From the IMG/VR virus record IMGVR_UViG_3300033273_000067, positions 1 to 28,193 of that record: a stretch of DNA of 28,193 nucleotides; one strand, written 5' to 3'. This DNA is from a virus. Each line of letters begins with the position of its first letter. Positions within the stretch are counted from its first letter, which is position 1. Positions 2,825-26,007 of this stretch are shown here, one piece after another. Both the position numbers and the translations under genes were made by a program. The notes under the pieces were generated by a model. It was given only the letters and a program-made list of their open reading frames with translations. It searched no databases and was not told the origin of the DNA.

Positions 2825-3491
2825 TCGAACTGTACAGATCCTGAAGACGTTCGTTAATATCAACAAGTCTATTCAGTTCAGGAAAGGTAGTGAGATCTCT
2901 ACTCTGGCAATCCAGAAGAACGTTCTTGCTCGTGCTCCTGTGGAAGAACAATTCCCTCAGGACTTTGCTATCTATGATCTGGGTGAGTTTGTACAGGTTC
3001 TAAACCTGTTCCAAGATGGTGAACTGTCCTTTGATAGTCCTTCTTATGTAACTATCTCTTCGGGACGTAACAAGGCTCGGTACTTCTTTGCCGACCCTAC
3101 TATCATTACCTCTCCTCCTACTAAGGCACCTTCTCTTCCCAGCACTGAGGTTGAGTTTGACCTGAGTCGTGAGGACTTCCAGCGTGTGATTCAGTCTATC
3201 AACATCTACAAGGTTGAGGATCTCTCCATTGTGGGTGAGCCTGGTGGTCACGTTTCTATCGTTGTTCGAGATCGTAAGAACGATTCTTCCAACACCTACT
3301 CTGTGGATGTTGGTGAAGCAGACGCAAACTTCTGTTTCAATCTCAAGGCAGAGAACCTTGTCGGTAAGTTGATCCCTGGTGATTACTCTGTTAAGATCAG
3401 TGCCAAGGGTGCTAGCACCTGGCGTTGTACTTCTGACAACCTTGAGTACATGATTGCTCTAGAGCCAGATTCTAAGTATGAGGCAGGTTGA
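2811..3491 (+). CDS. 45: DNA polymerase sliding clamp (gp45-like)
   Basis: The 226-residue product fits the length of T4 gp45 (228 residues) and its place just upstream of the clamp loader. The clamp is a ring-shaped trimer that tethers gp43 to DNA and, in T4, also activates late transcription with gp55 and gp33. The start was set at ATG 2811 (MRLSNRTVQILKTF), because the longer frame from 2781 lies almost wholly inside the previous gene. Clamp-like features include LSNRTVQILKTFVNIN at the start, the FDLSREDFQRVIQS start of the second domain half and the late strand GDYSVKISAKG. The gene overlaps its upstream neighbour by 14 bases. Confidence 0.88.
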   Translation: MRLSNRTVQILKTFVNINKSIQFRKGSEISTLAIQKNVLARAPVEEQFPQDFAIYDLGEFVQVLNLFQDGELSFDSPSYVTISSGRNKARYFFADPTIITSPPTKAPSLPSTEVEFDLSREDFQRVIQSINIYKVEDLSIVGEPGGHVSIVVRDRKNDSSNTYSVDVGEADANFCFNLKAENLVGKLIPGDYSVKISAKGASTWRCTSDNLEYMIALEPDSKYEAG

Positions 3492-4077
3492 TATTGAGGT
3501 TATAGATGACTTTGTTTCTCCTTCTTATCTGAAGGAGTTACAGACTCTTCTGACTAGCACTGACTTCCATTGGCATTTCCAGAGTTCTCAATCTCTGAAT
3601 TATAGTTCTGAGAAGTTAGAAGACTTTGGGTTCTCACAGGGCATTGTCCCTCCCTGGGAACCCAATCGGTTTTTGGATACTGGTTGTGCTTTCTTTATTG
3701 CTCCGTTGATCTATCAGATCAAAGACAATCTACAAGCAGATAACATCATGCGCTGTAGACTGGACATGACTGTCCTCCACAAGCCACCATATCTCCATCC
3801 ACCACACATTGACATTGGTGAGGACCACGTTGCCTGTATTGTGTACATCAATGAGACTGATGGTGACACTGTGATCTATGATAAGAAATTATCTAACATG
3901 GAACTGGAACAGTGGAAGCTTGATATGACTCTGGACCTTCCTCCAGATGTTAAAGTTAAGCAACGTATTTTACCTAAGCCTGGACGTGTGGTATTATTTA
4001 ATGGAAGGTACGCCCACACTGGGCACTCTCCTAGCGAGCATCAGTCTCGCATTTTGATTAACTCTGTCTTTACTTGA
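3478..4077 (+). CDS. 2OG-Fe(II) oxygenase-like protein
   Basis: This 199-residue protein carries a canonical oxygenase triad. H110 and D112 lie in LHPPHIDIGEDHVACIVYIN, H180 in VVLFNGRYAHTGHSP, and R191 in SRILIN is the likely 2-oxoglutarate ligand. The segment RCRLDMTVL before the HxD is the usual preceding strand. It belongs to the broad prolyl-hydroxylase-like group; the substrate is unknown. It is inserted between gp45 and gp44, which are adjacent in T4, and overlaps the end of gp45 by 14 bases, so the two may be translationally coupled. It differs clearly in sequence from the LFPTP-type oxygenases in the window. Confidence 0.8.
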   Translation: MRQVDIEVIDDFVSPSYLKELQTLLTSTDFHWHFQSSQSLNYSSEKLEDFGFSQGIVPPWEPNRFLDTGCAFFIAPLIYQIKDNLQADNIMRCRLDMTVLHKPPYLHPPHIDIGEDHVACIVYINETDGDTVIYDKKLSNMELEQWKLDMTLDLPPDVKVKQRILPKPGRVVLFNGRYAHTGHSPSEHQSRILINSVFT

Positions 4078-5027: not shown

Positions 5028-5550
5028 TAATCCTCTCACGGATGCTTACTACACACTGAGGGATCTTGTCAACGGACAAGATTTCCCTTGGTATTACTTT
5101 GATCATAGTGTAGAAGGTGTTAACGATGAGTTTGAGAACTGTCCTTTTTATGGACATACTATCTTGGCTCGTCCTGGGTATGGAGGATTTCTCCATTCAA
5201 CGCAACAATCTCCACACTTAGACTTAGCCAACCTTGTGCTTTCGGAGATCTTCGACTATAATAAAATCGATGTGAACGTAGTGTATCGCATCAATGTCAA
5301 CTGTACTCACTGGTCTAGTCCTCTACCATCAGTGCCACATGTTGACCATGATTTCCCTCATAAAAATCTGATTATGTACCTTAGTCAGTTCGATTATGGA
5401 GATACATGTTTGTGGGATGAAGAGACAATGGAATGTATTGATAGGTATATACCCAATCGAGATGATATTGTCACCTTTGAAGGACTACATAACATAGAAC
5501 AACCTCGTCTTGGTTGTAGAAGAATCGTTCTAGTTGCTACTTATTCATGA
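5005..5550 (+). CDS. 2OG-Fe(II) oxygenase-like protein
   Basis: A GTG start at 5005 gives 181 residues and overlaps the end of gp44 by 23 bases. The oxygenase signature is H112 and D114 in VPHVDHDFPHKNLIMYLSQF, H162 in VTFEGLHNIEQP, and R172 or R173 in CRRIVLVATY as the 2-oxoglutarate ligand. The layout resembles prolyl-hydroxylase-like phage oxygenases that have a GDTCLW-type strand after the HxD. Substrate is unknown. It separates gp44 from gp62, which are adjacent in T4. No other in-frame start gives a better N-terminus, so the GTG is moderately secure. Confidence 0.75.
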   Translation: MSVISKLDNPLTDAYYTLRDLVNGQDFPWYYFDHSVEGVNDEFENCPFYGHTILARPGYGGFLHSTQQSPHLDLANLVLSEIFDYNKIDVNVVYRINVNCTHWSSPLPSVPHVDHDFPHKNLIMYLSQFDYGDTCLWDEETMECIDRYIPNRDDIVTFEGLHNIEQPRLGCRRIVLVATYS

Positions 5551-6407
5551 AATCTTTGAAGACGCCATTGCGATATCCTGGTGGTAAGTCTAGGGCAGTA
5601 CCCAAACTGTTTCGGTACCTACCAGAAAAAATCTCAGAGTACAGAGAGCCATTCCTCGGTGGTGGTTCTATGGCTATTGCTATGACCAAGGCTTACCCAG
5701 ATATTCCTATCTGGGTGAATGATCTATACGAACCTTTGTATAACTTCTGGGTCAACCTGCGTGAGTATGGCAACAGTATGACCGAAGAACTTCGTACTCT
5801 AAAAAAGGAGAACCAGAATACAGAGACTGCTCGTGCCCTCTTCGACTTTTGTAAGGTACAGGTAAATGACAAGGACGTGGATCCTCTTCAACGTGCTGTT
5901 GCTTTCTACGTTGTTAATAAGTGTTCGTTTAGTGGGCTCACTGAGTCCAGCTCCTTCTCGGGACAAGCCAGCAACAACAACTTTACGATGAGAGGTATTG
6001 AAAAACTTCCCGAGTACAGCGATCTAATTGCTGACTGGAAGATTACTAACCTCTCTTACGAACAGGTAGTCCATGACACTACGGTCAAGGCACCTATTGG
6101 ATCAGTAGATGTTGACGCTTTCATCTACGCCGATCCTCCCTATGACATTAAGGATGTTCTCTACGGTAAGAAGGGGAACATGCATAAAGGATTTGATCAC
6201 AGCACTTTTGCTGAGGTCATGGATGGTGTCATCGCAAACGTGATGGTGTCGTACAACAACCATCCTGACATCCGTCAACGGTTTGAGGAGTGGCATCAGT
6301 ATGACTGGGATCATACATACACGATGCGATCCACTGGTAATTACATGAAGAACCAGCAGGGACGCCGTGAATTGCTTTTGACGAACTATGGATGGTGTTT
6401 AGACTGA
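5547..6407 (+). CDS. dam: DNA adenine-N6 methyltransferase (Dam/D12 class)
   Basis: This 286-residue enzyme shows the order of Dam-type D12 methyltransferases. LRYPGGKSRAVPKL (about 8-21) and EPFLGGGSMAIAM (about 34-46) form the S-adenosylmethionine site, the acidic NDLYEPLYNFW follows, and the catalytic motif DPPY is at 196-199. It should methylate adenine at N6 in a short site, probably GATC-like although specificity cannot be read here. Possible roles are protection from host restriction or marking of phage DNA. It overlaps the upstream gene by 4 bases (ATGA) and the next one through TGATG. Confidence 0.93.
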   Translation: MKSLKTPLRYPGGKSRAVPKLFRYLPEKISEYREPFLGGGSMAIAMTKAYPDIPIWVNDLYEPLYNFWVNLREYGNSMTEELRTLKKENQNTETARALFDFCKVQVNDKDVDPLQRAVAFYVVNKCSFSGLTESSSFSGQASNNNFTMRGIEKLPEYSDLIADWKITNLSYEQVVHDTTVKAPIGSVDVDAFIYADPPYDIKDVLYGKKGNMHKGFDHSTFAEVMDGVIANVMVSYNNHPDIRQRFEEWHQYDWDHTYTMRSTGNYMKNQQGRRELLLTNYGWCLD

Positions 6408-6619
6408 TGGGTGGAAGTTTAGGCGTACGGGTAAAGAATGGCTATGTCTCCCTCTATCACACGAAGAGAGGAGTCCTGAGCACCTTCTGCCCTAACTCAC
6501 AATCCGCCATCATCAATGGCGATGAGATCCATGTCACTCTGAACAGTGGCAGCATTGCGATCTATGAAATCAATTCAAACGGAACTGGTGTCCGTGGTCC
6601 AGTAAAGATTATTACATGA
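6407..6619 (+). CDS. Small protein of unknown function
   Basis: ATG 6407 overlaps the dam stop (TGATG) and gives 70 residues, MGGSLGVRVKNGYVSLYH and onward; an ATG at 6392 would add five residues. The sequence is short alternating hydrophobic stretches (GVRVKNGYVSLYH, DEIHVTLNSGSIAIYEI), suggesting a small all-beta protein. No cysteines beyond one, no membrane segment and no signal peptide are visible. It ends in an ATGA overlap with the next gene. I do not recognise the family. The tight overlaps on both sides are the main evidence that it is real. Confidence 0.6.
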   Translation: MGGSLGVRVKNGYVSLYHTKRGVLSTFCPNSQSAIINGDEIHVTLNSGSIAIYEINSNGTGVRGPVKIIT

Positions 6620-7215
6620 AGTATGTCAACATTAGTGCGCCAATCTTATTTAAGGATCGCTTTGAGTTTGACGACTCCTATGTTGGAGTGGCGGACAGGC
6701 TCTTCCGAATGGTTAACGAGTACAGCGTTACTACACCTGTAGAGCATGGTGGTCTATCTACAGCAAACCTGATTGGCATTCCTGGGCATGTGATGCCCCA
6801 CACAGATCCTGAGTTTGAACCATTCCTTGAGTGGGTAAGTGCGAGGGTTGTTTATCTCCAGAAGCAATGGAAGTATGAGAGATCGTTCTCTAACTTCATC
6901 TCTAACAGTTGGTTCAATGAACACTGGAAGGGTGACTGGACAGATGAACATGCTCACGGTCCCTGTATCGTGTGTACCGCATACATCCGTAAACCAGATA
7001 ACTCTGGCAACCTACTGGTTAGGGATCCTATGACTGAGATCAGGACTATGGAACCCATGGACATCAATCCTTGGAAGACTATCCCTGTTCAAGAGGGAGA
7101 CGTTGTATTCTTCCCTGGTTGGTTGAGACACAAGACTGAAGCCAGTGATTCAACCGAGAGACGGTTGACCTTTACTATGAACATTACACCTAACTATGAG
7201 CGGCGAGCTTTCTGA
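6616..7215 (+). CDS. 2OG-Fe(II) oxygenase-like protein
   Basis: The 199-residue product has the oxygenase pattern with H112 and H114 in DEHAHGPCIVCTAYIRKP, a strand GNLLVRDP, and H172 in GDVVFFPGWLRHKTEASDS. R182 or R183 in ERRLTFTMNI is the likely 2-oxoglutarate ligand. The HxH in place of HxD resembles the genes at 625 and 13243. The substrate is unknown. It overlaps the small gene upstream by 4 bases and gp62 downstream by 20 bases, so it is embedded in the clamp loader operon. The N-terminus lacks the LFPTP signature of its relatives. Confidence 0.8.
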   Translation: MKYVNISAPILFKDRFEFDDSYVGVADRLFRMVNEYSVTTPVEHGGLSTANLIGIPGHVMPHTDPEFEPFLEWVSARVVYLQKQWKYERSFSNFISNSWFNEHWKGDWTDEHAHGPCIVCTAYIRKPDNSGNLLVRDPMTEIRTMEPMDINPWKTIPVQEGDVVFFPGWLRHKTEASDSTERRLTFTMNITPNYERRAF

Positions 7216-12233: not shown

Positions 12234-13246
12234 ATTTTTTACATGATGTTGTCAAAGAGATTGACAATGACTACGCGGGACTCCTCTCTGAAGGATCGGT
12301 TGGTGATATTGGAGGCTATATTGACTCTGGTTCTCATATCTTCAACGCCCTTGTTAGCGGTAGTATTTTTGGTGGAATTCCCTCAAACAAAATTACCGCA
12401 ATTGCGGGAGAATCTTCGACAGGCAAGACATTCTTCTGCCTGGGTATGGTATCAAGCTTCCTTTCTTCCAACCCTGAGGCAGGCGTTGTCTACTTTGAAA
12501 GCGAATCAGCCATCTCCAAGTCGATGATTGAAGAGAGAGGTATTGATTCCTCTCGCATGATCCTGGTCCCTGTGACTACGGTACAGGAGTTCCGTACTCA
12601 AGCCATCAGGATCCTTGATAAGTACATGGAACAGAAGGAAGATGATCGCAAACCCCTGATGTTTGTGCTTGACTCTCTGGGTATGCTCTCTACCACCAAG
12701 GAGATTGAAGACTCTGAGGCAGGTAAGGAGACTCGTGACATGACACGAGCACAGGTTACTAAATCTATCTTCCGTATCCTGACCCTCAAGTTGGGTAAGG
12801 CGAACGTTCCCATGATCGTGACCAACCACACCTATGATGTGGTGGGTGCCTATGTGCCAACTAAAGAAATGGGCGGTGGTAGTGGACTGAAGTACGCTGC
12901 TTCGACTATCATATATTTGTCCAAGTCGAAGGAACGCGATGGCAAAGAGGTGGTGGGTAACATCATCAAAGCAACAGCAGCGAAGTCTCGTCTCACTAAA
13001 GAAAATTCTAGGGTAGAAACGAGGTTGTTCTATGACTCAAGGGGACTTGACAAGTATTACGGCTTACTGGAACTGGGTGAGAAGTACGGAGTATTCCAGC
13101 GCAAGGGCAATCGCATCCTTGTTGGGGAATCTTCCGTTTATCCTTCTGTTATACTTAGTGATCCAGAGAAGTATTTCACGCCCGAAGTAATGGAACAGCT
13201 TGACTGGGCTGCTGGTCAAGAATTTAAGTATGGATCTGAAAAATGA
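12230..13246 (+). CDS. uvsX: UvsX recombinase (RecA-like)
   Basis: The 338-residue protein is the phage RecA homologue, which forms filaments on single-stranded DNA and drives strand exchange for recombination-dependent replication and repair. Walker A is GESSTGKT at about 60-67 and Walker B is [11 protein letters not shown] at about 145-155. [13 protein letters not shown] and the glycine-rich [13 protein letters not shown] correspond to the DNA-binding loop region of UvsX. T4 UvsX has 391 residues; the C-terminal part is shorter here. It follows gp43 with an ATGA overlap, as in many cyanophages. Confidence 0.96.
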
Positions 13247-13851
13247 AAGTAGATTTGTTTCCCACCAGCGTCTATCGCTACCACGTAGAGGACCCTACTG
13301 ACCTTAAGAACAGGGTCATTCAATACTATAACGAGAACAAGTTCAAGGATGAAAATCCTACCCCTGAAGACTGGAACTGCCAGTTGTTCACTACCTTTGG
13401 TAGTGGATACTTCCCCATCACAGAGGCTATTGAAGTGTTCTCTCCTATCTTCGATCAGTTTCAGGAGGAGTCAAAGACCTACGGTAACGTCATTCTTACC
13501 GACCTTTGGCTAAACTGCTACGAATCTACCAACTGGCAGGAAAAACACACGCACTCTCCTGGGCAATGGTCTGCCGTGTACTATGCTATCTTTGACTCTA
13601 ACGAGCATCGAGGTACTAAGTTCATTGATCCGAACGAAAGCATCCGTGCTGCCAATGGATTCAAGGAAAACGCCGCAGAACCCTGGGTACAGGAAGGTGA
13701 TCTAATTATCTTTCCATCCTATCTTGAGCATTCCGCTCCTTTGAACAAGTCTAGCAAACTCCGTTCTACTATTTCATTCAACTTTTTTGTGGAGCAAGAG
13801 ATCTATGAAGGTGGAGACACTGATTTTGAAAAACTTGTTGTTGAGCCATGA
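13243..13851 (+). CDS. 2OG-Fe(II) oxygenase-like protein (LFPTS family)
   Basis: The 202-residue product begins [13 protein letters not shown], sharing the LFPT signature with the genes at 625 and 15791. H102 and H104 in [17 protein letters not shown] stand at the HxD/H position, H163 in [16 protein letters not shown] is the distal ligand, and R174 in [10 protein letters not shown] is the likely 2-oxoglutarate ligand. It lies between uvsX and the gp41 helicase, overlapping uvsX by 4 bases and gp41 by 47 bases. Its target is unknown; the location suggests co-expression with recombination and helicase proteins. Confidence 0.8.
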
Positions 13852-15396: not shown

Positions 15397-15801
15397 ATGG
15401 CCATTGATTTTGATCGATACGAAGAGTTCGTTGATGCTGTAACGAGCGATGCCTCAAAAGATTTTGTCTCTCTTGCTGACCGCATGGTTGAGCTTGATAG
15501 AGAGGGTGCCAATATTGAGCGTCTTCTTACTGCTGGCGTTGGGATTAACGCTGAAGGTGGTGAGTTTCTGGAGATCGTTAAGAAGATGGTTTTCCAAGGT
15601 AAGCCTTGGAACGACGATAACCGTGAGCATCTTATCATTGAGCTCGGTGATCTTCTTTGGTATGTTGCTCAAGCAACTCAGGCTCTAGGGGTCTCCTTTG
15701 ATGAGGTCATTGAACTCAACGTGAAGAAGCTTGAGAAGCGCTACCCTGGTGGCGAGTTTGATATTTACTATAGCGAGAACCGTTCTGCTGATGATCGTTA
15801 A
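15397..15801 (+). CDS. mazG: MazG-family nucleotide pyrophosphohydrolase
   Basis: The 134-residue protein has the MazG motif set: E53, E56 and E59 in NAEGGEFLEIVKK and E82 with D85 in IIELGDLLWYVAQ, which bind magnesium. FQGKPWNDDNREHL between them is typical of cyanophage MazG. The family hydrolyses nucleoside triphosphates to monophosphates. In cyanophages it has been proposed to alter ppGpp or to recycle host GC-rich nucleotides; the substrate cannot be told here. It has its own consensus promoter at 15345-15374. Its end overlaps the next gene by 11 bases. Confidence 0.93.
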   Translation: MAIDFDRYEEFVDAVTSDASKDFVSLADRMVELDREGANIERLLTAGVGINAEGGEFLEIVKKMVFQGKPWNDDNREHLIIELGDLLWYVAQATQALGVSFDEVIELNVKKLEKRYPGGEFDIYYSENRSADDR

Positions 15802-16387
15802 TCTGTTCCCCACTTCTATCTACAAGGCAGAGATGCCTGAGTATACTAACTGGATAGAAAAGAGGTGGACTGAGCATAGATTCAACACTGATGAAGGTTT
15901 GACTGGTGAGATGGAGGGTCAGGTGCTAGTTCACCACGACTCTTATCTCACTTCTTTTTTTGTTGAGCTCAATGAGCATGTCAAAGAATACGTCAAGACC
16001 TTCTTGGTTGACTATGACATCCACTTCATGAAAACTTGGTACTCTGTGACTGATGAAAAGAGGTCTGTTCCCCACCATAATCACGATCCTGCTCATGTTT
16101 CATGGATCTACTATGTTTCTGGGGAAGACCCTCTTTGCTTTGCCAAAGAAAACTTTAACGAGTGGTTCCCTGAGGCGTTCGCGGGTTCTGAAAAGAACTT
16201 TAATAATGGGACCGTCTACCAAATGAACATCAAGCCAGGTGACCTCTTGATATTCCCATCTAAATTGTTCCATCACACCTACAACACCATGCCTAGAGTT
16301 AGTCTAGCTGGTGACATACTTCTTACAAACAAGAACCTAAATACTGAAGGAGGATTACTACATCCGAAGTATTGGAAGCAGTTCTAA
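15791..16387 (+). CDS. 2OG-Fe(II) oxygenase-like protein (LFPTS family)
   Basis: ATG 15791 gives 198 residues opening MIVNLFPTSIYKAEMPEYTN, matching the LFPT signature; the longer frame from 15731 adds residues encoded inside mazG. H96 and H98 in VPHHNHDPAHVSWIYYVSG are the likely metal pair, H161 or H162 in GDLLIFPSKLFHHTYN is the distal ligand, and R169 may bind 2-oxoglutarate. It overlaps mazG by 11 bases, so it likely shares the early mazG promoter. The substrate is unknown. It ends directly against the next start with no gap. Confidence 0.78.
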   Translation: MIVNLFPTSIYKAEMPEYTNWIEKRWTEHRFNTDEGLTGEMEGQVLVHHDSYLTSFFVELNEHVKEYVKTFLVDYDIHFMKTWYSVTDEKRSVPHHNHDPAHVSWIYYVSGEDPLCFAKENFNEWFPEAFAGSEKNFNNGTVYQMNIKPGDLLIFPSKLFHHTYNTMPRVSLAGDILLTNKNLNTEGGLLHPKYWKQF

Positions 16388-17572
16388 ATGGCAGGTCAAG
16401 GACTCACTTGGGGACAGTTTAACCGAAGTGGTAGATACGAAAACAACCTGAGGGAGATCCACAAGAAGTCTGTTGCTGGATCTCCTCTGCTTTTGACTGA
16501 ATCCGTTCCTGGCTTACAGGGCAATGGAGTCCATTTCACCTTTGATGAGATGGTCTTCAATGTAGGGGTGGAGTTTTCTTTCACTCCCTCTGATTATACT
16601 GAGGATGAGTTCGTACAGAAGGTAACTGCTAGGGTACCTGACAGTATGAAGAAGGTTTCTATAACCTTTGTCAAAGGGCAGAGAAAAATACCCAGTGGTA
16701 AAGTATTAAAAGGACCAGAGTTTGGTGGTAAACCCCCAGCTGGGGCAACGTTGACCGCAAGGTGGGGATACCTTGCCACGTTGACTGAGATTCTGGATCC
16801 GAGTTACAAGCTTGATACTCCTAGTTCTCAGGAGATGGGTGAGTTGATGTTCATCAATGACATGAACACTGCTATTGCTGAAGCCATCGATAAAGAACTA
16901 GCAGATCCCAAGTCCACAATGGATAAGGACTGCCCTGGCATTACAGTTAAGGTTGGTAGTCATGAGTTTGAACATGTTGTTGGTGTAAATAAGGTTGCTG
17001 GTACACCTAAAGCTGACCTAGCACTGGTAGCATGTGTCAATAAGAAACTGAAGAACGTTGGATTCCTGTCGCATAAGATGGGAAGCAAGGCGAAGGACTT
17101 TGGTCAGTGGTCTGGTCTTACTCTTAAGGCAGGTAGAGTCATCTCTGACCACCCTGAGGTTGTTAGATTCATTGCTGATGTCAAGGCGTGGACTGAGGCT
17201 AATCCTGAGTGGGCAAAACCATCTGGTGTTGCTGTCCGTAGGGAGATTCAGGATAGAGATTTGATGATGTATGCGGTGTATGGACCTGACTTCGGTAAGA
17301 AGTTTGGAACTGAAAATGTCCACGCTGTACTACAAGGCAATCCTAAGTTAAATAAGCAAGGGAAGGTTTATGTTATGACGGCTTCGCACGTCAATGACAA
17401 TGGTGATGACCTCACTGGTGATTTTGTCCCTGCCCTGGTAGCAATGAAGAAGGGTGCCTGGGAGAAAATTCTAGATCCTAACGCTAAGGGTGTGAGATCT
17501 GACTTTGGTATCCGTGGTATGAGAATATCCATCTACACCTACGGGGGTAGAAAGATCACAGATGAAATCTGA
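16388..17572 (+). CDS. Unknown protein, possible PD-(D/E)xK nuclease fold
   Basis: The 394-residue product belongs to no family I can name with certainty. Near residues 201-243 it has NKVAGTPKADLALV (D210), then GFLSHKMG (K230), then FGQWSG (Q240). This order of a KAD strand, an (S/H)xK strand and a following Q..SG resembles PD-(D/E)xK nuclease-like phage proteins, so a nuclease fold is possible. RWGYLATLTE (about 125-134) and the C-terminal SDFGIRGMRISIYTYGGRK are other well-formed segments. It starts immediately after an oxygenase and overlaps the next gene by TGATG, making a three-gene unit with two nucleotidyltransferases. There is no signal peptide or membrane segment. Confidence 0.7.
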   Translation: MAGQGLTWGQFNRSGRYENNLREIHKKSVAGSPLLLTESVPGLQGNGVHFTFDEMVFNVGVEFSFTPSDYTEDEFVQKVTARVPDSMKKVSITFVKGQRKIPSGKVLKGPEFGGKPPAGATLTARWGYLATLTEILDPSYKLDTPSSQEMGELMFINDMNTAIAEAIDKELADPKSTMDKDCPGITVKVGSHEFEHVVGVNKVAGTPKADLALVACVNKKLKNVGFLSHKMGSKAKDFGQWSGLTLKAGRVISDHPEVVRFIADVKAWTEANPEWAKPSGVAVRREIQDRDLMMYAVYGPDFGKKFGTENVHAVLQGNPKLNKQGKVYVMTASHVNDNGDDLTGDFVPALVAMKKGAWEKILDPNAKGVRSDFGIRGMRISIYTYGGRKITDEI

Positions 17573-18765
17573 TGGCAAATGTAACTCAACTAAAACACCT
17601 AGAGCATATTGAGGATGAGATGCTGAACCATGGCGTCGAAGGATGTCATGCGGCAGTGTCTGCTATGAGAGAACTTCTCCGTATGCTTGGTAAGAAGCCA
17701 TCTACAGGGTTTCTACAGACCAAATGGGACGGTGCTCCCTCTGTTGTTTGCGGCACAGATCCTGAGTCAGGAAATTTTTTCGTAGGTACCAAGTCTGTTT
17801 TTAATAAGACCGAGCCTAAACTGTGTTTTACTGAGGAATATATCGATACTATGTACTCTGGTGATCTCGCAGAGAAACTGAAGTTCTCTCTCAAGTATTT
17901 CTCTCAGTTAGGTATCGATGGTGTGGTTCAGGGTGACCTACTTTTCACCTCAGATAAGAAGAAAGAGAAGGTAGACGGAGAAGATCTCATCACCTTCCGT
18001 CCTAACACTATCACCTATGGGATTCCAGTCGATCATCCTATTGGTAAGGTAGTAGATAGAGCAAAGATTGGGGTAGTTTTCCACACCCATTACGTTGGCG
18101 ATGACCTACCTAGCATGGCTGCTCAGCCAGGTGCCAAGGTCAAGGGATCTGTTGACGTTGCGGTCATTGAAAACGACACACCTTACCATGATATTGCGGT
18201 AGACAGAAACACTCTTACGAAGTTTAAGAACAATGTTGATGTCATTGAGAGAATGTGCCAGATTTGTGGTCCTTTTCTTGACAATCTGGTTAGTAATATC
18301 GGTACCACTGGTGACGCTAAGTTCCACGTCGCTAGCTTCCTCAAGCAATTCTTTAACAACGAAATTAAAAACGCTAGAAACGTGGGTGATCCTACCAGAA
18401 CTCTCAAGGCTCTTGGTGAGTTCTACCACAGTAAGATGATGAAGGAGATTGACAAGGTTAAGTCCGACAAAGGTAAGACTAAGAAGAGAGAACTTCTCTA
18501 CACAGGTCTTCAATACCTAGAGGACAACGCCAAGGAATTCCGTGCGATGCTAGCCCTATATAAAAAACTACAGGAGAACAAGCAACTGGTTATCGATCAG
18601 CTTGATCACCTGGAAACTTTTAGAACTCTGGTCCAGACGGACAAAGGATATAAGCCTACGAACCCTGAAGGGTATGTGTTACATCACAATGGCGACATGA
18701 TTAAGTTGGTAAACAGAATTGAGTTCTCTTACATCAACTTTACCCTGTTGAAAGAATGGAAATAG
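17572..18765 (+). CDS. Predicted covalent nucleotidyltransferase (KxDG, DNA/RNA ligase-like)
   Basis: The 397-residue protein has the ordered motifs of the ligase/capping-enzyme superfamily. Motif I is KWDG (51-54, K51 as the possible nucleotidyl-lysine), motif III GVVQGDLLF (about 117-125), motif IIIa KIGVVFHTHY (165-174), and motif IV EGYVLHH (from 366) with K378 in IKLV as motif V. About 190 residues, mostly helical, separate IIIa from IV, far more than in ordinary ligases, so this is a divergent family with an insert. Members join nucleic-acid ends or transfer a nucleotide. It overlaps both neighbours, one of which is another nucleotidyltransferase class. Public annotations may well list it as a domain of unknown function. 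Confidence 0.75.
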   Translation: MANVTQLKHLEHIEDEMLNHGVEGCHAAVSAMRELLRMLGKKPSTGFLQTKWDGAPSVVCGTDPESGNFFVGTKSVFNKTEPKLCFTEEYIDTMYSGDLAEKLKFSLKYFSQLGIDGVVQGDLLFTSDKKKEKVDGEDLITFRPNTITYGIPVDHPIGKVVDRAKIGVVFHTHYVGDDLPSMAAQPGAKVKGSVDVAVIENDTPYHDIAVDRNTLTKFKNNVDVIERMCQICGPFLDNLVSNIGTTGDAKFHVASFLKQFFNNEIKNARNVGDPTRTLKALGEFYHSKMMKEIDKVKSDKGKTKKRELLYTGLQYLEDNAKEFRAMLALYKKLQENKQLVIDQLDHLETFRTLVQTDKGYKPTNPEGYVLHHNGDMIKLVNRIEFSYINFTLLKEWK

Positions 18766-19307
18766 TAGATTATAAATGCGTGTACTTTACGTTTGGCAGG
18801 TTCCAACCTCCAACGATAGGACACGAGGAAAACTTTAAGGCAGTCAAGGGTAAAGCAGGTTCCTGTGACTGGTATATTTACTTGTCTCAGACGGTTGATA
18901 AGAAAGGTAGCAACCCCTTGTCACCTGACAGGAAACTATTCTATGCTAAGAAGATGTTCCCGCAACTGAGGAACAACATTCGTAGTGGTCCTAAGGATCC
19001 AGTGGCTATCCTAAAAGAGTTACAAGCAGAAGGTTATGATGATGCCGTCCTAGTCGTCGGCTCTGACAGAGTACCCGCAATGCAGTGGATTAAAAAGTAC
19101 AATGGCAAGGACTTTTATTTTAGAAAACTCGAAGTTATCTCTTCAGGCGAACGCGATGCTGACGGTGACACTTTTGCTATATCTGGCACGAAGATGCGAC
19201 GCGCAGCAGTAGCAGGAGACTTCGCAACTTTCCGTCAAGGAATACCTAAAGCCCTTAGTGATAAGGATGCTCGTGCTCTGATGGAAGAGATACGAAAAAA
19301 CATGTGA
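18756..19307 (+). CDS. Nucleotidyltransferase of the cytidylyltransferase/NMNAT-like class
   Basis: The 183-residue protein has GRFQPPTIGH at 14-23, the (H/T)xGH nucleotide-binding signature of NMN adenylyl-, cytidylyl- and pantetheine-phosphate adenylyltransferases. ISGTKMR at about 142-148 is the second signature (ISxTxxR). AVLVVGSDRV at about 97-106 is the central strand. It should transfer AMP or CMP from a triphosphate to a phosphorylated acceptor; the acceptor, NMN or something else, cannot be told. No Nudix or nicotinamide-handling partner is in the window. It overlaps the KxDG nucleotidyltransferase by 10 bases and is the last gene before a late promoter. Confidence 0.85.
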   Translation: MEIVDYKCVYFTFGRFQPPTIGHEENFKAVKGKAGSCDWYIYLSQTVDKKGSNPLSPDRKLFYAKKMFPQLRNNIRSGPKDPVAILKELQAEGYDDAVLVVGSDRVPAMQWIKKYNGKDFYFRKLEVISSGERDADGDTFAISGTKMRRAAVAGDFATFRQGIPKALSDKDARALMEEIRKNM

Positions 19308-19337: not shown

Positions 19338-20426
19338 ATGAAATCTTTCAGCGACTTCAAAAAGACCAGACAAGTTGCGGAGCAAACTGTTATCCGTGAT
19401 AAATACTATCGTGAAGAAATTTATAAAGTAGGTGAGTGGGTACTCACTGAATCAGGCAACGTCGGTAAGATTGTTCGCCGTGGTCCTAACTATGTTATTT
19501 GTGTCACCGCTGAAGATACTTCGTTCCGCACCTGGGTGAAGGACATCAAAGAAGTATTTGAAATTGGAACTGACGCTTACCGCGAATATGTAATGTCACT
19601 TACTCCTGGTCAGAAAGTTCAAAAGCCTGCTGGGAGTGTCAAAGTCAAACAAGTAATTCCTACAGACCCCAAAAAAGATAAAATGGACAATCACGAGAGT
19701 CTGGTACACGCAGCTGCTGCTCACCTTAGTTCCAAATCGGAATCGTGGAGATATGATAAGTCTCCTATCGTTGGTAACAAGAACGTCAAGGGTCTTGGTG
19801 CCGCAGGTGTAGGTGGTGGCGATGCTCCTGGTATGAAACTTGCCGAACCCAAGGGTACAGAAGGTAAGCCAGCAGTGAAGAAACCACAACATGCTTGTGC
19901 TACCAAGGTTGAGCACAGTAAGTGGGGCAAGGGTAACTGTATTAAAGAGATGCATACTCTGGATGAGCAGGGTAATATCTCCCACTACGATGTCATGTTC
20001 GAGCATGGTCTTGAGCAGAATGTACCTGTTCAGGTTCTGAACGTTCTGGTCAGCGAAATGCATGAGCACGCTATCAATCATGCTAAGAACCAAGAGGTTC
20101 TGGATGAGAAGAAAAAGAAACTTGATCCCGTTGGTAAAGAAGACGGTGATGTAGACAATGATGGTGACAAGGATGCTTCCGACTCCTATCTGATGAACCG
20201 CCGCCGTGCTGTTGCTAAGGCAATGGGCAAGAAGACTAAGAAGGAAGAAGTGGAAGTTCAGGAAGGTAGCATGGCTACCGCCCGTAAGAACGTCGGTGCT
20301 GACTCCTGCTGGGATGGTTACGAAGCCAAGGGTACTAAGAAGAAGGGCGGTAAGACCGTTCCTAACTGTGTGAAGAAAGAGAGCACCTTCTCTGACTGGC
20401 GCAAGGAGATCTCCGAAAAAAAGTAA
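19338..20426 (+). CDS. Putative virion or prohead-associated protein, Lys-rich
   Basis: The 362-residue product starts MKSFSDFKKTRQVAEQ. An SH3/KOW-like beta segment follows (YKVGEWVLTESGNVGKIV and on, about 29-75), then a flexible Gly/Pro/Lys stretch. A second structured part (about 190-250) is VEHSKWGKGNCIKEMHTL and onward. A calcium-loop-like DGDVDNDGDKDASDSY (about 270-285) and a Lys-rich end complete it. Such low-complexity Lys-rich sequences with DxDxDG-type loops are common in cyanophage structural proteins. The late promoter at 19308 supports a virion role. The exact role, such as head core or internal protein, is unknown. Confidence 0.65.
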   Translation: MKSFSDFKKTRQVAEQTVIRDKYYREEIYKVGEWVLTESGNVGKIVRRGPNYVICVTAEDTSFRTWVKDIKEVFEIGTDAYREYVMSLTPGQKVQKPAGSVKVKQVIPTDPKKDKMDNHESLVHAAAAHLSSKSESWRYDKSPIVGNKNVKGLGAAGVGGGDAPGMKLAEPKGTEGKPAVKKPQHACATKVEHSKWGKGNCIKEMHTLDEQGNISHYDVMFEHGLEQNVPVQVLNVLVSEMHEHAINHAKNQEVLDEKKKKLDPVGKEDGDVDNDGDKDASDSYLMNRRRAVAKAMGKKTKKEEVEVQEGSMATARKNVGADSCWDGYEAKGTKKKGGKTVPNCVKKESTFSDWRKEISEKK

Positions 20427-20446: not shown

Positions 20447-21040
20447 ATGCCCGAGATCGATGATCCATCGGGCAACCCCGAGCAAGCGTCCGCCAAGAAG
20501 ATGCCCAAGGTTCCTCAACAGACTGAGGCAAAATGCAACAAGTCTGGTGAAGGTGAAGAGTGTCCTCTTCATGGCAAGCACGCTTGTCCTGAATTAAAAG
20601 AGGAAACACTTGATGAAAAGAGAGGACTGTACGCCAATATCCATGCTAAGAGAAAGCGTGGAGAGCGCCCTGCTAGACCAGGAGAAGAGGATTATCCAGC
20701 AAAAGACGCCTTCAAAAAGTCAGCCCGAACCGCCAAGAAAGAATCCATCGAACTAGATGAGGTTGCTCCTCCTGGCGCTAAGTCTGAGCGTATGGTAAAG
20801 CATATCAAGAAGTCTTACTCTAAGGATGGCAAACTCACTGCTAAGGAGAAAGCCATTGCGTATGCTACTGCTTGGAAGCATCATAATAAGATGAAGAAAG
20901 AGCATTGCGACATGGAGTTTGATGTCGTAGCACATCAGTGTGGTCACTGTAACGCCACTGGGTATCACCCAACTGGTGAGAAGTGTGATCAGTGTGATGG
21001 TAAAGGTACACTTCAAACAGCAAATGATGGAGTGAAATGA
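20447..21040 (+). CDS. Putative virion-associated protein with DnaJ-like zinc motif
   Basis: The 197-residue product is basic and probably largely disordered. It contains DEKRGLYANIHAKRKRGERP (about 56-75) and KHIKKSYSKDGKLTAKEKA (about 119-137), segments of a kind seen in cyanophage structural proteins. The C-terminal part has CGHCNATGYHP followed by CDQCDGKGT, two CxxCxxxG units as in the DnaJ zinc-binding region, so it may bind one zinc ion. A further CNKSGEGEECPLHGKHACP near 30-48 is another Cys/His cluster. It follows the previous gene by 20 bases and is likely on the same late transcript. Confidence 0.6.
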   Translation: MPEIDDPSGNPEQASAKKMPKVPQQTEAKCNKSGEGEECPLHGKHACPELKEETLDEKRGLYANIHAKRKRGERPARPGEEDYPAKDAFKKSARTAKKESIELDEVAPPGAKSERMVKHIKKSYSKDGKLTAKEKAIAYATAWKHHNKMKKEHCDMEFDVVAHQCGHCNATGYHPTGEKCDQCDGKGTLQTANDGVK

Positions 21041-21079: not shown

Positions 21080-21775
21080 ATGCGAAAGATTTGGTTTGAG
21101 GATGAGTTAGATTTCTTGTCCTCGTTTCGTAATTTGAAACAACATTATGAACTGATAATCCCTGAAGTCTTGGCTTTTGTTGAGGCAAACAAGTTCCTCT
21201 TTGAGGAATGGGTTCTCGACAAGTGGGTAGATGATCGCAACCTAGGTAGAGTACAACTCTGGGATGGTTCCTGGAGAGTCATTCCTTTCCCCATCAATGC
21301 GGTGGGTGCTACTGCTAGCATGGAAGACTTTGAACTTAGTGAGATGGTTACATTCACTAAGTTGTTCAATACCACCACAGAAAGATGTCGTGAAGTTCTC
21401 CCTATGATTACGGAGTCCTTCCTCAAGACATGTCCAAAGACATACGAATTTCTGAAAGAGGATATAGATAATCAAGTGTTGAAGAGTGCGACGCTAAGCC
21501 GCATGTCACCTGGCACAAAGATCAATCCTCACAATGGAGACATCGATTCACTTAGGTTACATTTCCCTGTTGTTACAGATCCTGGCGCATGGATCAAGGT
21601 ACGTGCGAGACAGCGGACGTGGGAAGTTGGTGACCTTTTCGCATTCCATGACAATGATAAACATTGGGCGCAGCACAACGGCACCCATGATCGCCTCATT
21701 GTTATTTTTGATTATAGTCTCGAACAACTTCAAAGAAAATATAAATACGAGCTTGTGAAGGACTATATAGAATAG
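21080..21775 (+). CDS. Aspartyl/asparaginyl beta-hydroxylase-like oxygenase
   Basis: The 231-residue protein fits the aspartyl/asparaginyl beta-hydroxylase branch of 2OG-Fe(II) oxygenases. LSRMSPGTKINPHNGDIDSL gives H151, followed by LRLHFPV (158-164). The end WEVGDLFAFHDNDKHWAQHN has H195, and R205 in DRLIVIFDY binds the cosubstrate. Eukaryotic relatives hydroxylate Asp or Asn in EGF-like domains; phage members have unknown targets. The N-terminal 90 residues are not recognised. An imperfect late box AATAAATC (21051-21058) precedes it. It sits among probable virion genes, unlike most of the other oxygenases here. Confidence 0.82.
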   Translation: MRKIWFEDELDFLSSFRNLKQHYELIIPEVLAFVEANKFLFEEWVLDKWVDDRNLGRVQLWDGSWRVIPFPINAVGATASMEDFELSEMVTFTKLFNTTTERCREVLPMITESFLKTCPKTYEFLKEDIDNQVLKSATLSRMSPGTKINPHNGDIDSLRLHFPVVTDPGAWIKVRARQRTWEVGDLFAFHDNDKHWAQHNGTHDRLIVIFDYSLEQLQRKYKYELVKDYIE

Positions 21776-23663: not shown

Positions 23664-24312
23664 ACTCCAGTGTGGGTTCCATGATATCCTAAAGTTCAAT
23701 CCTAGACTTCAACTCCTTGTGGATTCCTGGCGAGAGATCCACGAGGAGTTTGTCGCGTGTAGAGATAAGTTGGCAACCGTGAACTGGGGTGCCATGGGTG
23801 ATACTGATACTGGATACTTCGGTGAACTCACAGTAGCAGAGCATGATGGATACTGGAAGAACATCCCTCTGTATGGCAGTGGGCATGAGTATAAGCAGAC
23901 TCTGATCAATGCTCCTGGGCAAACAAGAACTGATGTGGGGTATATGGCAGAGCACAAAGAGAACTGCCAACTCTTATCCAAACTTGTTACGACTGCTAGG
24001 AAAGCCAACTGCTATCGGAGAGTTGGTATCAATCTATTAAATGCTGGTGAGCAGATCGATAGGCATACTGACAACGATCCGAACCCACCCGACGGTCTTC
24101 TGATGCGCGTTCTGTGGGGTCTAGACGTACCCACGGATGGTCGTGCTATACTTGCCCTACATAATCCTATGACGGGTAAGTTAGAACACAGACAGTTTAA
24201 GAACAATGAGTTCATTTGCTTCTGGGGTTCTCAATATCATGCGGTGTACAACACCCTTAAGTCCCCTCGGTATGTTTTAGTTATTGACCATGAGATTCGG
24301 ACGGATTTCTAA
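23602..24312 (+). CDS. 2OG-Fe(II) oxygenase/Asp hydroxylase-like protein
   Basis: The product is 236 residues from ATG 23602, or 241 from ATG 23587; neither has a clear ribosome-binding site, and both lie inside the previous gene. Numbering from 23587, the metal motif is H160 and D162 in GEQIDRHTDNDPN, with H218 in FICFWGSQYHAVYN and R228 in SPRYVLVIDHEI. VGINLLN before the HxD is the preceding strand. The layout (HxD, short strands, a late HxVxN) is like the Asp/Asn beta-hydroxylase branch. The first 25 residues may not be translated if a later non-ATG start is used. The substrate is unknown. It opens a run of three oxygenase-like genes. Confidence 0.72.
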   Translation: MNSSSPSLNQPLSPKGLSKSELQCGFHDILKFNPRLQLLVDSWREIHEEFVACRDKLATVNWGAMGDTDTGYFGELTVAEHDGYWKNIPLYGSGHEYKQTLINAPGQTRTDVGYMAEHKENCQLLSKLVTTARKANCYRRVGINLLNAGEQIDRHTDNDPNPPDGLLMRVLWGLDVPTDGRAILALHNPMTGKLEHRQFKNNEFICFWGSQYHAVYNTLKSPRYVLVIDHEIRTDF

Positions 24313-25135
24313 TGTCCTGACAGAAATAGACTGTCATTCCATTAGCGACAAAGTAAAGAAGATACATCCAGTTTGGTTGAACCGTAGTACATGTCATCCT
24401 AAGGTTCCCTTCTATACTATTGGTGCCACCACATACCTGGAAGGGTGTGATGACATCAAAAAGTATCACAAACACAAGGAATTATTGAATCCTATTCTTA
24501 GGAAACATTTTTCATATCTGTATGACATTGTATGTCAGAGGTTAAGTGATGAGTTGGATTCTCCTGTTGTTATTGACGACATGTTGGGTCACCCTGGTTT
24601 CCATATCTTTGGACTGAAACCTGGGGAGACTGGTACAGAGCAGCAACTGAAGGCGTTGGAGCAACCTCTGGCTAGCATTCACCTTGACATCCAGTATAAG
24701 GAGCACGGTGGTTACTGGAAGACCTTTGATGAGGTTGACTTCGAGAACCCACTGTCATTCACGTTGGCTATCAAACTACCTAAGAATGGTGGTGGTCTGT
24801 ACATCTGGGACTGGATGAAGTTTGATAAGGAACTCATCAAAGACTTCAACTTCCAACGGGAACATGAGAAGCAGAACTGGATCTCTAGTCAGTTCATGAA
24901 TCAAAGCGAGGAAGTTGTTAAGAGTCCAGAGATGTGGGAGAATGATTCCGCTGGGCACTACAAACCAGATGGTAATCCTGTTGTAGAGATGTACCATGAG
25001 GGAAGCATGATCTGGTTCACTGGTCACATGCTTCATCAGATTGCTCCTGGATATAAACTACAGCCAGATGACATGAGGATTACTCTCCAAGGTCATGGTA
25101 TCAAGTGTGATGGAACTTGGAGGATATACTTTTGA
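24290..25135 (+). CDS. 2OG-Fe(II) oxygenase-like protein, tandem paralogue A
   Basis: ATG 24290 gives 281 residues beginning MRFGRISNVLTEIDCHSI; it overlaps the previous gene by 23 bases. The metal ligands are H131 and D133 in ASIHLDIQYKEHGG, and the distal part is SMIWFTGHMLHQIAPGY with a His near 246 or 249. R263 in DMRITLQGHGI is the likely 2-oxoglutarate ligand. It is clearly related to the next gene over its whole length, for example TIGATTYLE against TLGATLYMD and LGHPGFHIFGL against LALPGFHIYHF. The length exceeds that of typical phage oxygenases because of an N-terminal 120-residue region. Substrate unknown. Confidence 0.75.
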   Translation: MRFGRISNVLTEIDCHSISDKVKKIHPVWLNRSTCHPKVPFYTIGATTYLEGCDDIKKYHKHKELLNPILRKHFSYLYDIVCQRLSDELDSPVVIDDMLGHPGFHIFGLKPGETGTEQQLKALEQPLASIHLDIQYKEHGGYWKTFDEVDFENPLSFTLAIKLPKNGGGLYIWDWMKFDKELIKDFNFQREHEKQNWISSQFMNQSEEVVKSPEMWENDSAGHYKPDGNPVVEMYHEGSMIWFTGHMLHQIAPGYKLQPDDMRITLQGHGIKCDGTWRIYF

Positions 25136-26007
25136 ACTTAGGTATTTTTCGAGTCCTAACACTTGATGAAGTTGATACGATCCATGCTGACATTCTGTCA
25201 CTTAAAAAGATTTGGAGACAGAGGACTAACTGGCACCCAACTAATGATGCTGGGGGAGATGAGGATCTAGAGAACTACATTCACTACCATACCCTAGGTG
25301 CCACTCTGTACATGGATGCTTCTGACTATGGGTGGAAGCACTACATGAAGTTCAAGACTCTGACCAATCAGATTCTTATGAAGAAGTTTGGTTGGTTGTA
25401 TGATGAGTTTAAGTATGCTATAAGTGAAGCACTCGGAGAAGAGTGTGAGTACGAAGGTGAACTTGCTTTACCTGGCTTTCACATCTACCACTTCGATAGG
25501 CAACCCAAACCTAAACATCACCATCGCTGTCTACACATTGACGGACAGTTCATGAACGCCCTACCTTGGCTAGCAAGAAAGTATGGTAGGGATATAGATG
25601 TACAAACACCTCTCTCGTATACATTTACTATCACAAGACCCTCTAGAGGGTCTGCTATCGCCTTCTGGGGACTCCCTGATGAGTTATATGAGAAGGCAGA
25701 GGAAGTCAAGAAAAGATATCCTCACCCTATTATAGAACGGTATGAGAACTTAGATTATGTCAAACAAATTAGAGAAGGGAACTTCATTGAACAACCCTGG
25801 AAGTACAAACTATTTGATGAGGATCCTGGGGATCTGGATTCTCACATCCCTCACGTCTTTCCTCACACTCCTGGGCATAGTTTCTTCTACACAGGGAAGA
25901 TCATCCACCAAATGATTTTGGGGGATCAGTTTGAGGACGGTGACTCTCGTATTACATTCCAAGGGCATGGATTAAAGATCAATGGTAAGTGGAAATTATT
26001 CTGGTGA
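25132..26007 (+). CDS. 2OG-Fe(II) oxygenase-like protein, tandem paralogue B
   Basis: TTG 25132 gives 291 residues beginning MNLGIFRVLTLDEVDTIH, which lines up with the MRFGRISNVLTEIDCHSI start of paralogue A. GGAGG at 25119-25123 lies at ideal distance, and the TTG overlaps the upstream stop (TTGA). An earlier in-frame TTG at 25117 lacks this support. The metal ligands are H135 and D137 in HHRCLHIDGQFMN, the distal part is HSFFYTGKIIHQMILGD with H259, and R273 lies in SRITFQGHGLKING. It is a tandem duplicate of the previous gene that has diverged strongly in the middle. Substrate unknown. Confidence 0.75.
   Translation: MNLGIFRVLTLDEVDTIHADILSLKKIWRQRTNWHPTNDAGGDEDLENYIHYHTLGATLYMDASDYGWKHYMKFKTLTNQILMKKFGWLYDEFKYAISEALGEECEYEGELALPGFHIYHFDRQPKPKHHHRCLHIDGQFMNALPWLARKYGRDIDVQTPLSYTFTITRPSRGSAIAFWGLPDELYEKAEEVKKRYPHPIIERYENLDYVKQIREGNFIEQPWKYKLFDEDPGDLDSHIPHVFPHTPGHSFFYTGKIIHQMILGDQFEDGDSRITFQGHGLKINGKWKLFW

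Follow-up and report, generated by a model that had tools for sequence, protein, structure and literature searches.

A possible head-carried kit of an exchangeable restriction-type nuclease, DUF6267 and an NMNAT-like enzyme in T4-like phages

Here, we describe a cassette of three overlapping genes in a viral DNA fragment of 28,193 nucleotides (IMG/VR record IMGVR_UViG_3300033273_000067, positions 1 to 28,193; the window hereafter), located on one strand at 16388-19307. Gene 1 encodes a homologue of CviJI-like type II restriction endonucleases, gene 2 a protein of the family DUF6267, and gene 3 a nucleotidyltransferase resembling nicotinamide mononucleotide adenylyltransferase (NMNAT). The reading that we favor, and whose chances we judge to be about even, is that these proteins represent a nucleic-acid-processing kit of marine T4-like phages that is carried in the phage head and injected, and that combines an exchangeable restriction-type nuclease with DUF6267 and an NMNAT-like enzyme. 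Carriage in the head is probable because many relatives have a T4-type targeting peptide on at least one member of the kit. The open reading frames (ORFs) of genes 1 and 2 overlap by 1 base and those of genes 2 and 3 by 10 bases, in agreement with an earlier note on this DNA, made from the sequence alone, which had reported three genes overlapping by 1-10 bases. The features of the cassette are the following.

16388-17572, + strand: gene 1, CviJI-like type II restriction endonuclease homologue, 394 amino acids (PADLOC profile, phrog_13937, AlphaFold2 model)
17015-17107, + strand: predicted nuclease active site of gene 1, invariant in its relatives, with the codons of D210 (17015-17017), S228-H-K230 (17069-17077) and Q240 (17105-17107)
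17572-18765, + strand: gene 2, DUF6267 (PF19782), predicted covalent nucleotidyltransferase of the ligase/capping superfamily, 397 amino acids (Pfam, AlphaFold2 model)
17722-17733, + strand: motif I of gene 2, KWDG (residues 51-54), with K51 as predicted nucleotidyl acceptor; invariant in 75 sequences
17935-17937, + strand: D122 of gene 2 in QGDLLF, the equivalent of motif III; invariant
18667-18705, + strand: motif IV of gene 2, EGYV (366-369), and the motif V lysine K378; E366, G367, V369 and K378 invariant
18756-19307, + strand: gene 3, HIGH-superfamily nucleotidyltransferase (NMNAT/cytidylyltransferase-like), 183 amino acids (PF01467; phrog_3041, E=3e-63)
18795-18824, + strand: GRFQPPTIGH, nucleotide-binding motif of gene 3 (from the sequence)
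19179-19199, + strand: ISGTKMR signature of gene 3 (from the sequence)

Predicted enzymes of the cassette

Gene 2 matches DUF6267 (PF19782), a Pfam family of no known function, with E=8e-125, and motifs and model together indicate that this family probably has a nucleotidyltransferase fold of the ligase/capping type. The motifs KWDG (51-54), GVVQGDLLF, KIGVVFHTHY, EGYV (366-369) and IKLV follow each other in this order, with about 190 residues separating motif IIIa and motif IV. In an alignment of 75 diverse relatives (34-78% identity), K51, W52, D53, G54, K74, D122, H171, E366, G367 and K378 are invariant; these include the lysine and the motif IV glutamate whose conservation the earlier note had required for its assignment to the KxDG nucleotidyltransferases. 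In the AlphaFold2 model (predicted local distance difference test score, pLDDT, 87; predicted template modelling score, pTM, 0.79) motif I is placed at a strand end, the strands that hold motifs III, IIIa, IV and V succeed one another as expected for the ligase/capping fold, and residues 212-345 form a helical insert; short forms of DUF6267 keep the motifs and lack part of this insert. Ligases or capping enzymes account for 13 of the 50 PDB matches shown for the model by Foldseek, and several RNA ligases are among the named viral matches ranked after the DUF6267 family, all of them non-significant. The assignment is thus supported by invariant motifs, by the topology of the model and by repeated, individually non-significant fold matches. 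DUF6267 shares with DNA/RNA ligases and capping enzymes the ordered KxDG, GDLLF, EGxV and K motifs and the order of strands, but differs from them in the long helical insert before motif IV, in a motif III with D for E, in the lack of a visible oligonucleotide-binding (OB) fold and of detectable sequence homology. A relation to Rnl1 was considered and rejected, the best hhalign score of DUF6267 being to this ligase, yet weak and outside the register of the motifs. By tblastn, 468 phage records, most of them from marine cyanophages, contain DUF6267, and no paper mentions it by name in the literature searched, which left subscription journals mostly outside its coverage.

For gene 1, the suspicion of a nuclease fold voiced in the earlier note is supported by the PADLOC profile REase_II PDLC03459 (type II restriction enzyme), which matches amino acids 198-349 with E=2e-10 and homologues of gene 1 with E=3.8e-13, 1.4e-9 and 1.6e-10. 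The homologue in S-CAM7 carries the annotation CviJI, and gene 1 belongs with phrog_13937 (E=3e-42), which is annotated as of unknown function; searches with Pfam and NCBIfam profiles gave no match. The residues of its KAD...SHK...Q..SG pattern are D210, S228-H-K230 and Q240, and D210, S228, K230 and Q240 are invariant in alignments of 13-16 relatives. The AlphaFold2 model is of moderate confidence (pLDDT 72), with an order of helices and strands consistent with PD-(D/E)xK nucleases; the Foldseek matches of this model include HinP1I and BsaWI, none of them significant. Membership of gene 1 in the family of CviJI-like type II restriction enzymes is supported by these comparisons, and cleavage of DNA is predicted from it.

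Gene 3 is, by its sequence, an enzyme of the HIGH superfamily, in line with the two signatures of cytidylyl/NMN adenylyltransferases that the earlier note had seen in it. It matches CTP_transf_like (PF01467) above the cut-off (E=1.6e-4) and satisfies the signatures G-x-F-x-P-x-(H/T)-x-G-H and (I/S)-S-x-x-x-x-R. An NCBIfam equivalog search gave no match for gene 3, and specificity for nicotinamide mononucleotide (NMN) adenylylation is at most a prediction. The motifs named in the earlier note for genes 1, 2 and 3 are all present. Sequence searches of the PDB with the three proteins or their profiles yielded nothing relevant.

Linkage and the exchangeable position before DUF6267

The earlier note had expected the three genes to be linked in other phages, which holds for genes 2 and 3 and fails for gene 1, in whose place unrelated nuclease-like families are found. 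The cytidyltransferase, as the homologues of gene 3 are called here, occurs in 511 phage records (tblastn). It lies within the fetched stretch in 97 of 127 non-redundant DUF6267 loci, in 56 of them within 60 bases, and forms a single polypeptide with DUF6267 in S-PM2 and other phages. These findings support linkage of genes 2 and 3 as a conserved trait, sometimes in the form of a fusion. Further apparent fusions of the cytidyltransferase in three relatives (L103, L131, L141) involve a Pol-beta-type nucleotidyltransferase (a weak match), an AAA_33/zeta-like kinase, and a RimK ATP-grasp domain with a Zn-protease-like domain; these partners argue for a nucleic-acid or effector role of the cytidyltransferase.

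The position upstream of DUF6267 is occupied by about ten families that are mutually unrelated by BLAST, most of them with D...(S/E)xK motifs. In cyanophage loci the upstream gene is usually coupled to DUF6267, with overlaps of 1-10 bases in most. In the four largest families, a D, an S-x-K and, close by, a Q or N are among the few polar residues that are invariant or nearly so (D263/S306/K308/N320; D223/S242/K244/N253; D211/S229/K231/Q241; D96/S105/K107/Q112). Two further proteins (L279 and L290) appear by eye to have a canonical D...ExK motif, additional ones read by eye as D...SxK or as canonical D...ExK, and a few positions are filled by other genes. Since a D...SxK regular expression failed to discriminate (8.3 of 14 matched even on shuffled sequences), invariant alignment columns were used instead. 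Pairwise profile comparisons among the families were weak; for family C against gene 1 the D and SxK were in register, at a probability of 21%. An HNH identity of one upstream protein (L157) was dismissed, the match being weak and not significant. Taken together, the alignments support an exchangeable position in which unrelated, putatively nuclease-like families substitute for gene 1.

Unrelated families in one position could also mean that a homing endonuclease standing on its own, or some other mobile gene, lies beside DUF6267 without belonging to one system with it. Homing endonucleases of the PD-(D/E)xK type occur in cyanophages. We regard this explanation as very improbable: the translational coupling in most cyanophage loci speaks against it, as do the same position held in three large unrelated families, the targeting peptides on several members and the similarity of gene 1 to restriction enzymes.

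Capsid targeting and the proposed mechanism

Internal proteins of T4 reach the prohead by means of an N-terminal peptide of 10-19 residues, after which the protease gp21 cuts at L/I-x-E (PMC9026906). Many relatives of the cassette have similar MKxFxxFLxE peptides ending in L/I-x-E, like Alt and IPI-III of the T4 head; they differ from these internal proteins in their cargo, which would be a predicted nuclease and two nucleotidyltransferases. Such peptides stand at the N-terminus of 31 of 85 non-redundant DUF6267 proteins, compared with 59 of 840 other ORFs and with 2.3 expected on shuffling, and of 13 of 65 cytidyltransferases in the same first set. In a second set of contigs they are found on 18 of 31 DUF6267 proteins, 11 of 17 cytidyltransferases and 6 of 18 upstream proteins against a background of 23 of 217 (p=1e-8, 9e-7 and 0.01, respectively, with related sequences counted as independent). 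The search pattern, which was composed after examples had been seen, catches T4 Alt and gp24 and gives UvsX and T4 ligase as false positives. Homologues of gene 1 are among the bearers (for example MLTFKGFISE in L289). In relatives, proteins encoded near DUF6267 that resemble P-loop kinases or phosphatases also begin with peptides like those for capsid targeting (L100:2954-4214, L106:6064-7337, and downstream of DUF6267 in L290 and L291).

Mass spectrometry has detected gene 3 homologues in virions, namely SSM1_190 in S-SM1 (PMC3037559) and ORF154 in S-CREM2 (PMC10665884). Both bear targeting peptides (MKKFSAFLNEA and MKNFSSFLTEA). For the products of genes 1 and 2 we infer packaging in the heads of relatives. 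DNA processing before packaging, one of the roles suggested in the earlier note, gives way to the reading that the proteins are themselves head cargo in relatives; end modification, NAD-type RNA capping and repair, also named there, are candidate roles. The virion data also bear on a metabolic explanation, by which gene 3 would be an auxiliary NMNAT that raises host NAD+ (nicotinamide adenine dinucleotide), linked to genes 1 and 2 without functional connection. Its HIGH motifs fit NMNAT-type enzymes, and the S-CREM2 protein has been read as an NAD+-raising NMNAT (PMC10665884), but the presence of homologues in virions, the fusion with DUF6267 and the apparent fusions with a Pol-beta-type domain (weak), an AAA_33 kinase and ATP-grasp make this very unlikely.

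In the mechanism that we propose, gene 1 would provide an exchangeable restriction-type nuclease, translationally coupled to DUF6267 and the NMNAT-like nucleotidyltransferase. In at least some relatives the kit would travel inside the head, be shortened by the prohead protease and be injected along with the DNA. The nuclease would, most likely, cut DNA of the host or of rivals within the first minutes, and DUF6267 would adenylylate, and possibly join, the ends of phage nucleic acids. Should DUF6267 consume NAD+, gene 3 may convert the NMN back to NAD+, a speculation drawn from the pairing of the two genes. The activities of the three proteins and their targets are predicted throughout. A more specific version, a modular head-injected device that joins any one of numerous restriction-type nucleases to DUF6267 and to an NMNAT-like enzyme regenerating NAD+ for it, we consider rather doubtful.

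Chloroviruses package restriction enzymes but not the methyltransferases of these, and the enzymes presumably degrade host DNA within minutes (PMC7019647); gene 1 resembles enzymes of the CviJI kind found there. The present case differs in belonging to a T4-like bacterial phage, in the coupling to DUF6267 rather than to a methyltransferase and in a position shared by many unrelated nuclease-like families, and packaging of gene 1 is here a prediction. Polyvalent phage proteins are multi-domain and thought to be injected (Iyer et al. 2017, PMC5512222). The fusions of the cytidyltransferase show a similar mixing of domains, but the genes of the cassette are mostly separate; the text of PMC5512222 contains none of the words cyanophage, NMNAT and cytidylyltransferase. 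A literature search on packaged or injected phage restriction enzymes returned T4 head papers only, again with subscription journals mostly outside its coverage. The linkage and fusion of genes 2 and 3, the exchange of the nuclease, the targeting peptides and the absence of ligases appear, provisionally, to be new. If true, head-injected exchangeable nucleases would mean that abundant ocean viruses share a strategy of host takeover or rival exclusion so far described for algal chloroviruses; tailed phages, too, would package restriction enzymes, here in combination with a new family of the ligase superfamily.

Several observations weigh against this reading. None of the window's own genes 1-3 has a targeting peptide with an L/I-x-E site, and gene 4, downstream, has at most a possible, degenerate one, with V-x-E for the L/I-x-E cleavage motif (PMC9026906). 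In S-CREM2, DUF6267 and the cytidyltransferase are encoded at separate places, DUF6267 is not in the printed virion table, and the authors concede that the virion protein may be carry-over (PMC10665884). A coupled gene before DUF6267 is absent in many pelagiphage-like loci. In gene 1 and in the families of the exchangeable position, S takes the place of the acidic residue of most (D/E)xK motifs, which leaves nuclease activity uncertain. Foldseek with the gene 2 model found no significant match outside the DUF6267 family, and hhalign of DUF6267 against T4 gp30, Rnl1 and Rnl2 scored no better than unrelated controls apart from the weak value for Rnl1; as no homology or fold search reached significance, the fold is graded as no more than probable. 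A cytosine-5 methyltransferase (PF00145) was not found in 20 records, so that self-protection of the phage DNA is unaccounted for. Finally, DLP6 and Vibrio phage EniLVp02 hold a DNA ligase in addition to DUF6267.

The last point also concerns a different explanation, in which DUF6267 serves inside the cell as the phages' own nucleic-acid ligase for replication or repair, gene 1, made after infection, acts as a nuclease in recombination or host-DNA breakdown, and packaging is incidental or lineage-specific. No ligase of PF01068, PF01653 or PF09414 was found in 8 isolate marine T4-like genomes and 2 large marine contigs with DUF6267, and in T4 and phiM12 ligases are present and DUF6267 is absent. 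DUF6267 may therefore perform ligase work, although the pattern is not strictly exclusive, and if it is an enzyme of the ligase superfamily, it could explain the missing recognisable ligases. A cellular ligase would fit the surroundings of the cassette, which lies among replication genes close to uvsX, gp41 and MazG, and likewise the peptide-free genes 1-3 of the window and the S-CREM2 virion table. The strong enrichment of targeting peptides on DUF6267 and cytidyltransferases of relatives argues against it, as do the lack of an OB fold or other C-terminal ligase domain in DUF6267 and its coexistence with DNA ligase in two phages. We consider this explanation unlikely, and continue to favor the head-carried kit. 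In phiM12, the genes following the gene 1 homologue had been taken, by their size, for DUF6267 and cytidyltransferase; their sequences ruled this out, and Pfam finds no DUF6267.

Palindromes and neighboring genes

No cognate methyltransferase that would place gene 1 in a restriction-modification system was found in a search of 20 records for PF00145. A D12-class N6-adenine methyltransferase is encoded at 5547-6407 of the window, about 10 kb from the cassette, and the D12 family is present in 9 of the 20 records. Particular palindromes of 4 bp are strongly depleted in the window (CCGG 0 vs 27 expected, GGCC 3 vs 41, TGCA 11 vs 112). Losses are also found elsewhere (observed/expected: GTAC 0/278 in the S-SM1 sample, CATG 0/168 in contig G001, GGCC 0/306 in DLP6), and host restriction may be their cause. 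As a read-out of nuclease specificity, palindrome avoidance was rejected, since it does not track the nuclease family: GCGC is missing in the B and C clades alike.

Downstream of the cassette, the following features were noted.

19338-20426, + strand: gene 4, with an N-terminal domain that relatives have as the C-terminal part of their cytidyltransferase protein (phrog_395)
19338-19382, + strand: possible degenerate capsid-targeting peptide of gene 4, MKSFSDFKKTRQVAE (by eye)
20447-21040, + strand: gene 5, which in relatives belongs, as a part, to one protein with gene 4 (each of the two genes matches a different part of phrog_22379)

Amino acids 15-125 of gene 4 match positions 212-325 of the phrog_395 cytidyltransferase (E=1e-18), and gene 3 matches positions 13-198. 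The replication genes of the window are T4-like (sliding clamp, clamp loader, DNA polymerase, UvsX, gp41-type helicase, MazG, primase and ribonucleotide reductase), as named from the ORFs and from the matching gene order in annotated relatives. Within the 28 kb there are also several genes resembling 2-oxoglutarate (2OG)-Fe(II) oxygenases and one resembling an Asp/Asn hydroxylase (3478-4077, 6616-7215, 13243-13851, 15731-16387, 21080-21775). The adjacent ORFs 24284-25135 and 25117-26007 encode related proteins, both of phrog_24927, and a match of the former to the WelO5 2OG-Fe(II) halogenase family stayed below threshold (E=1.2e-4).

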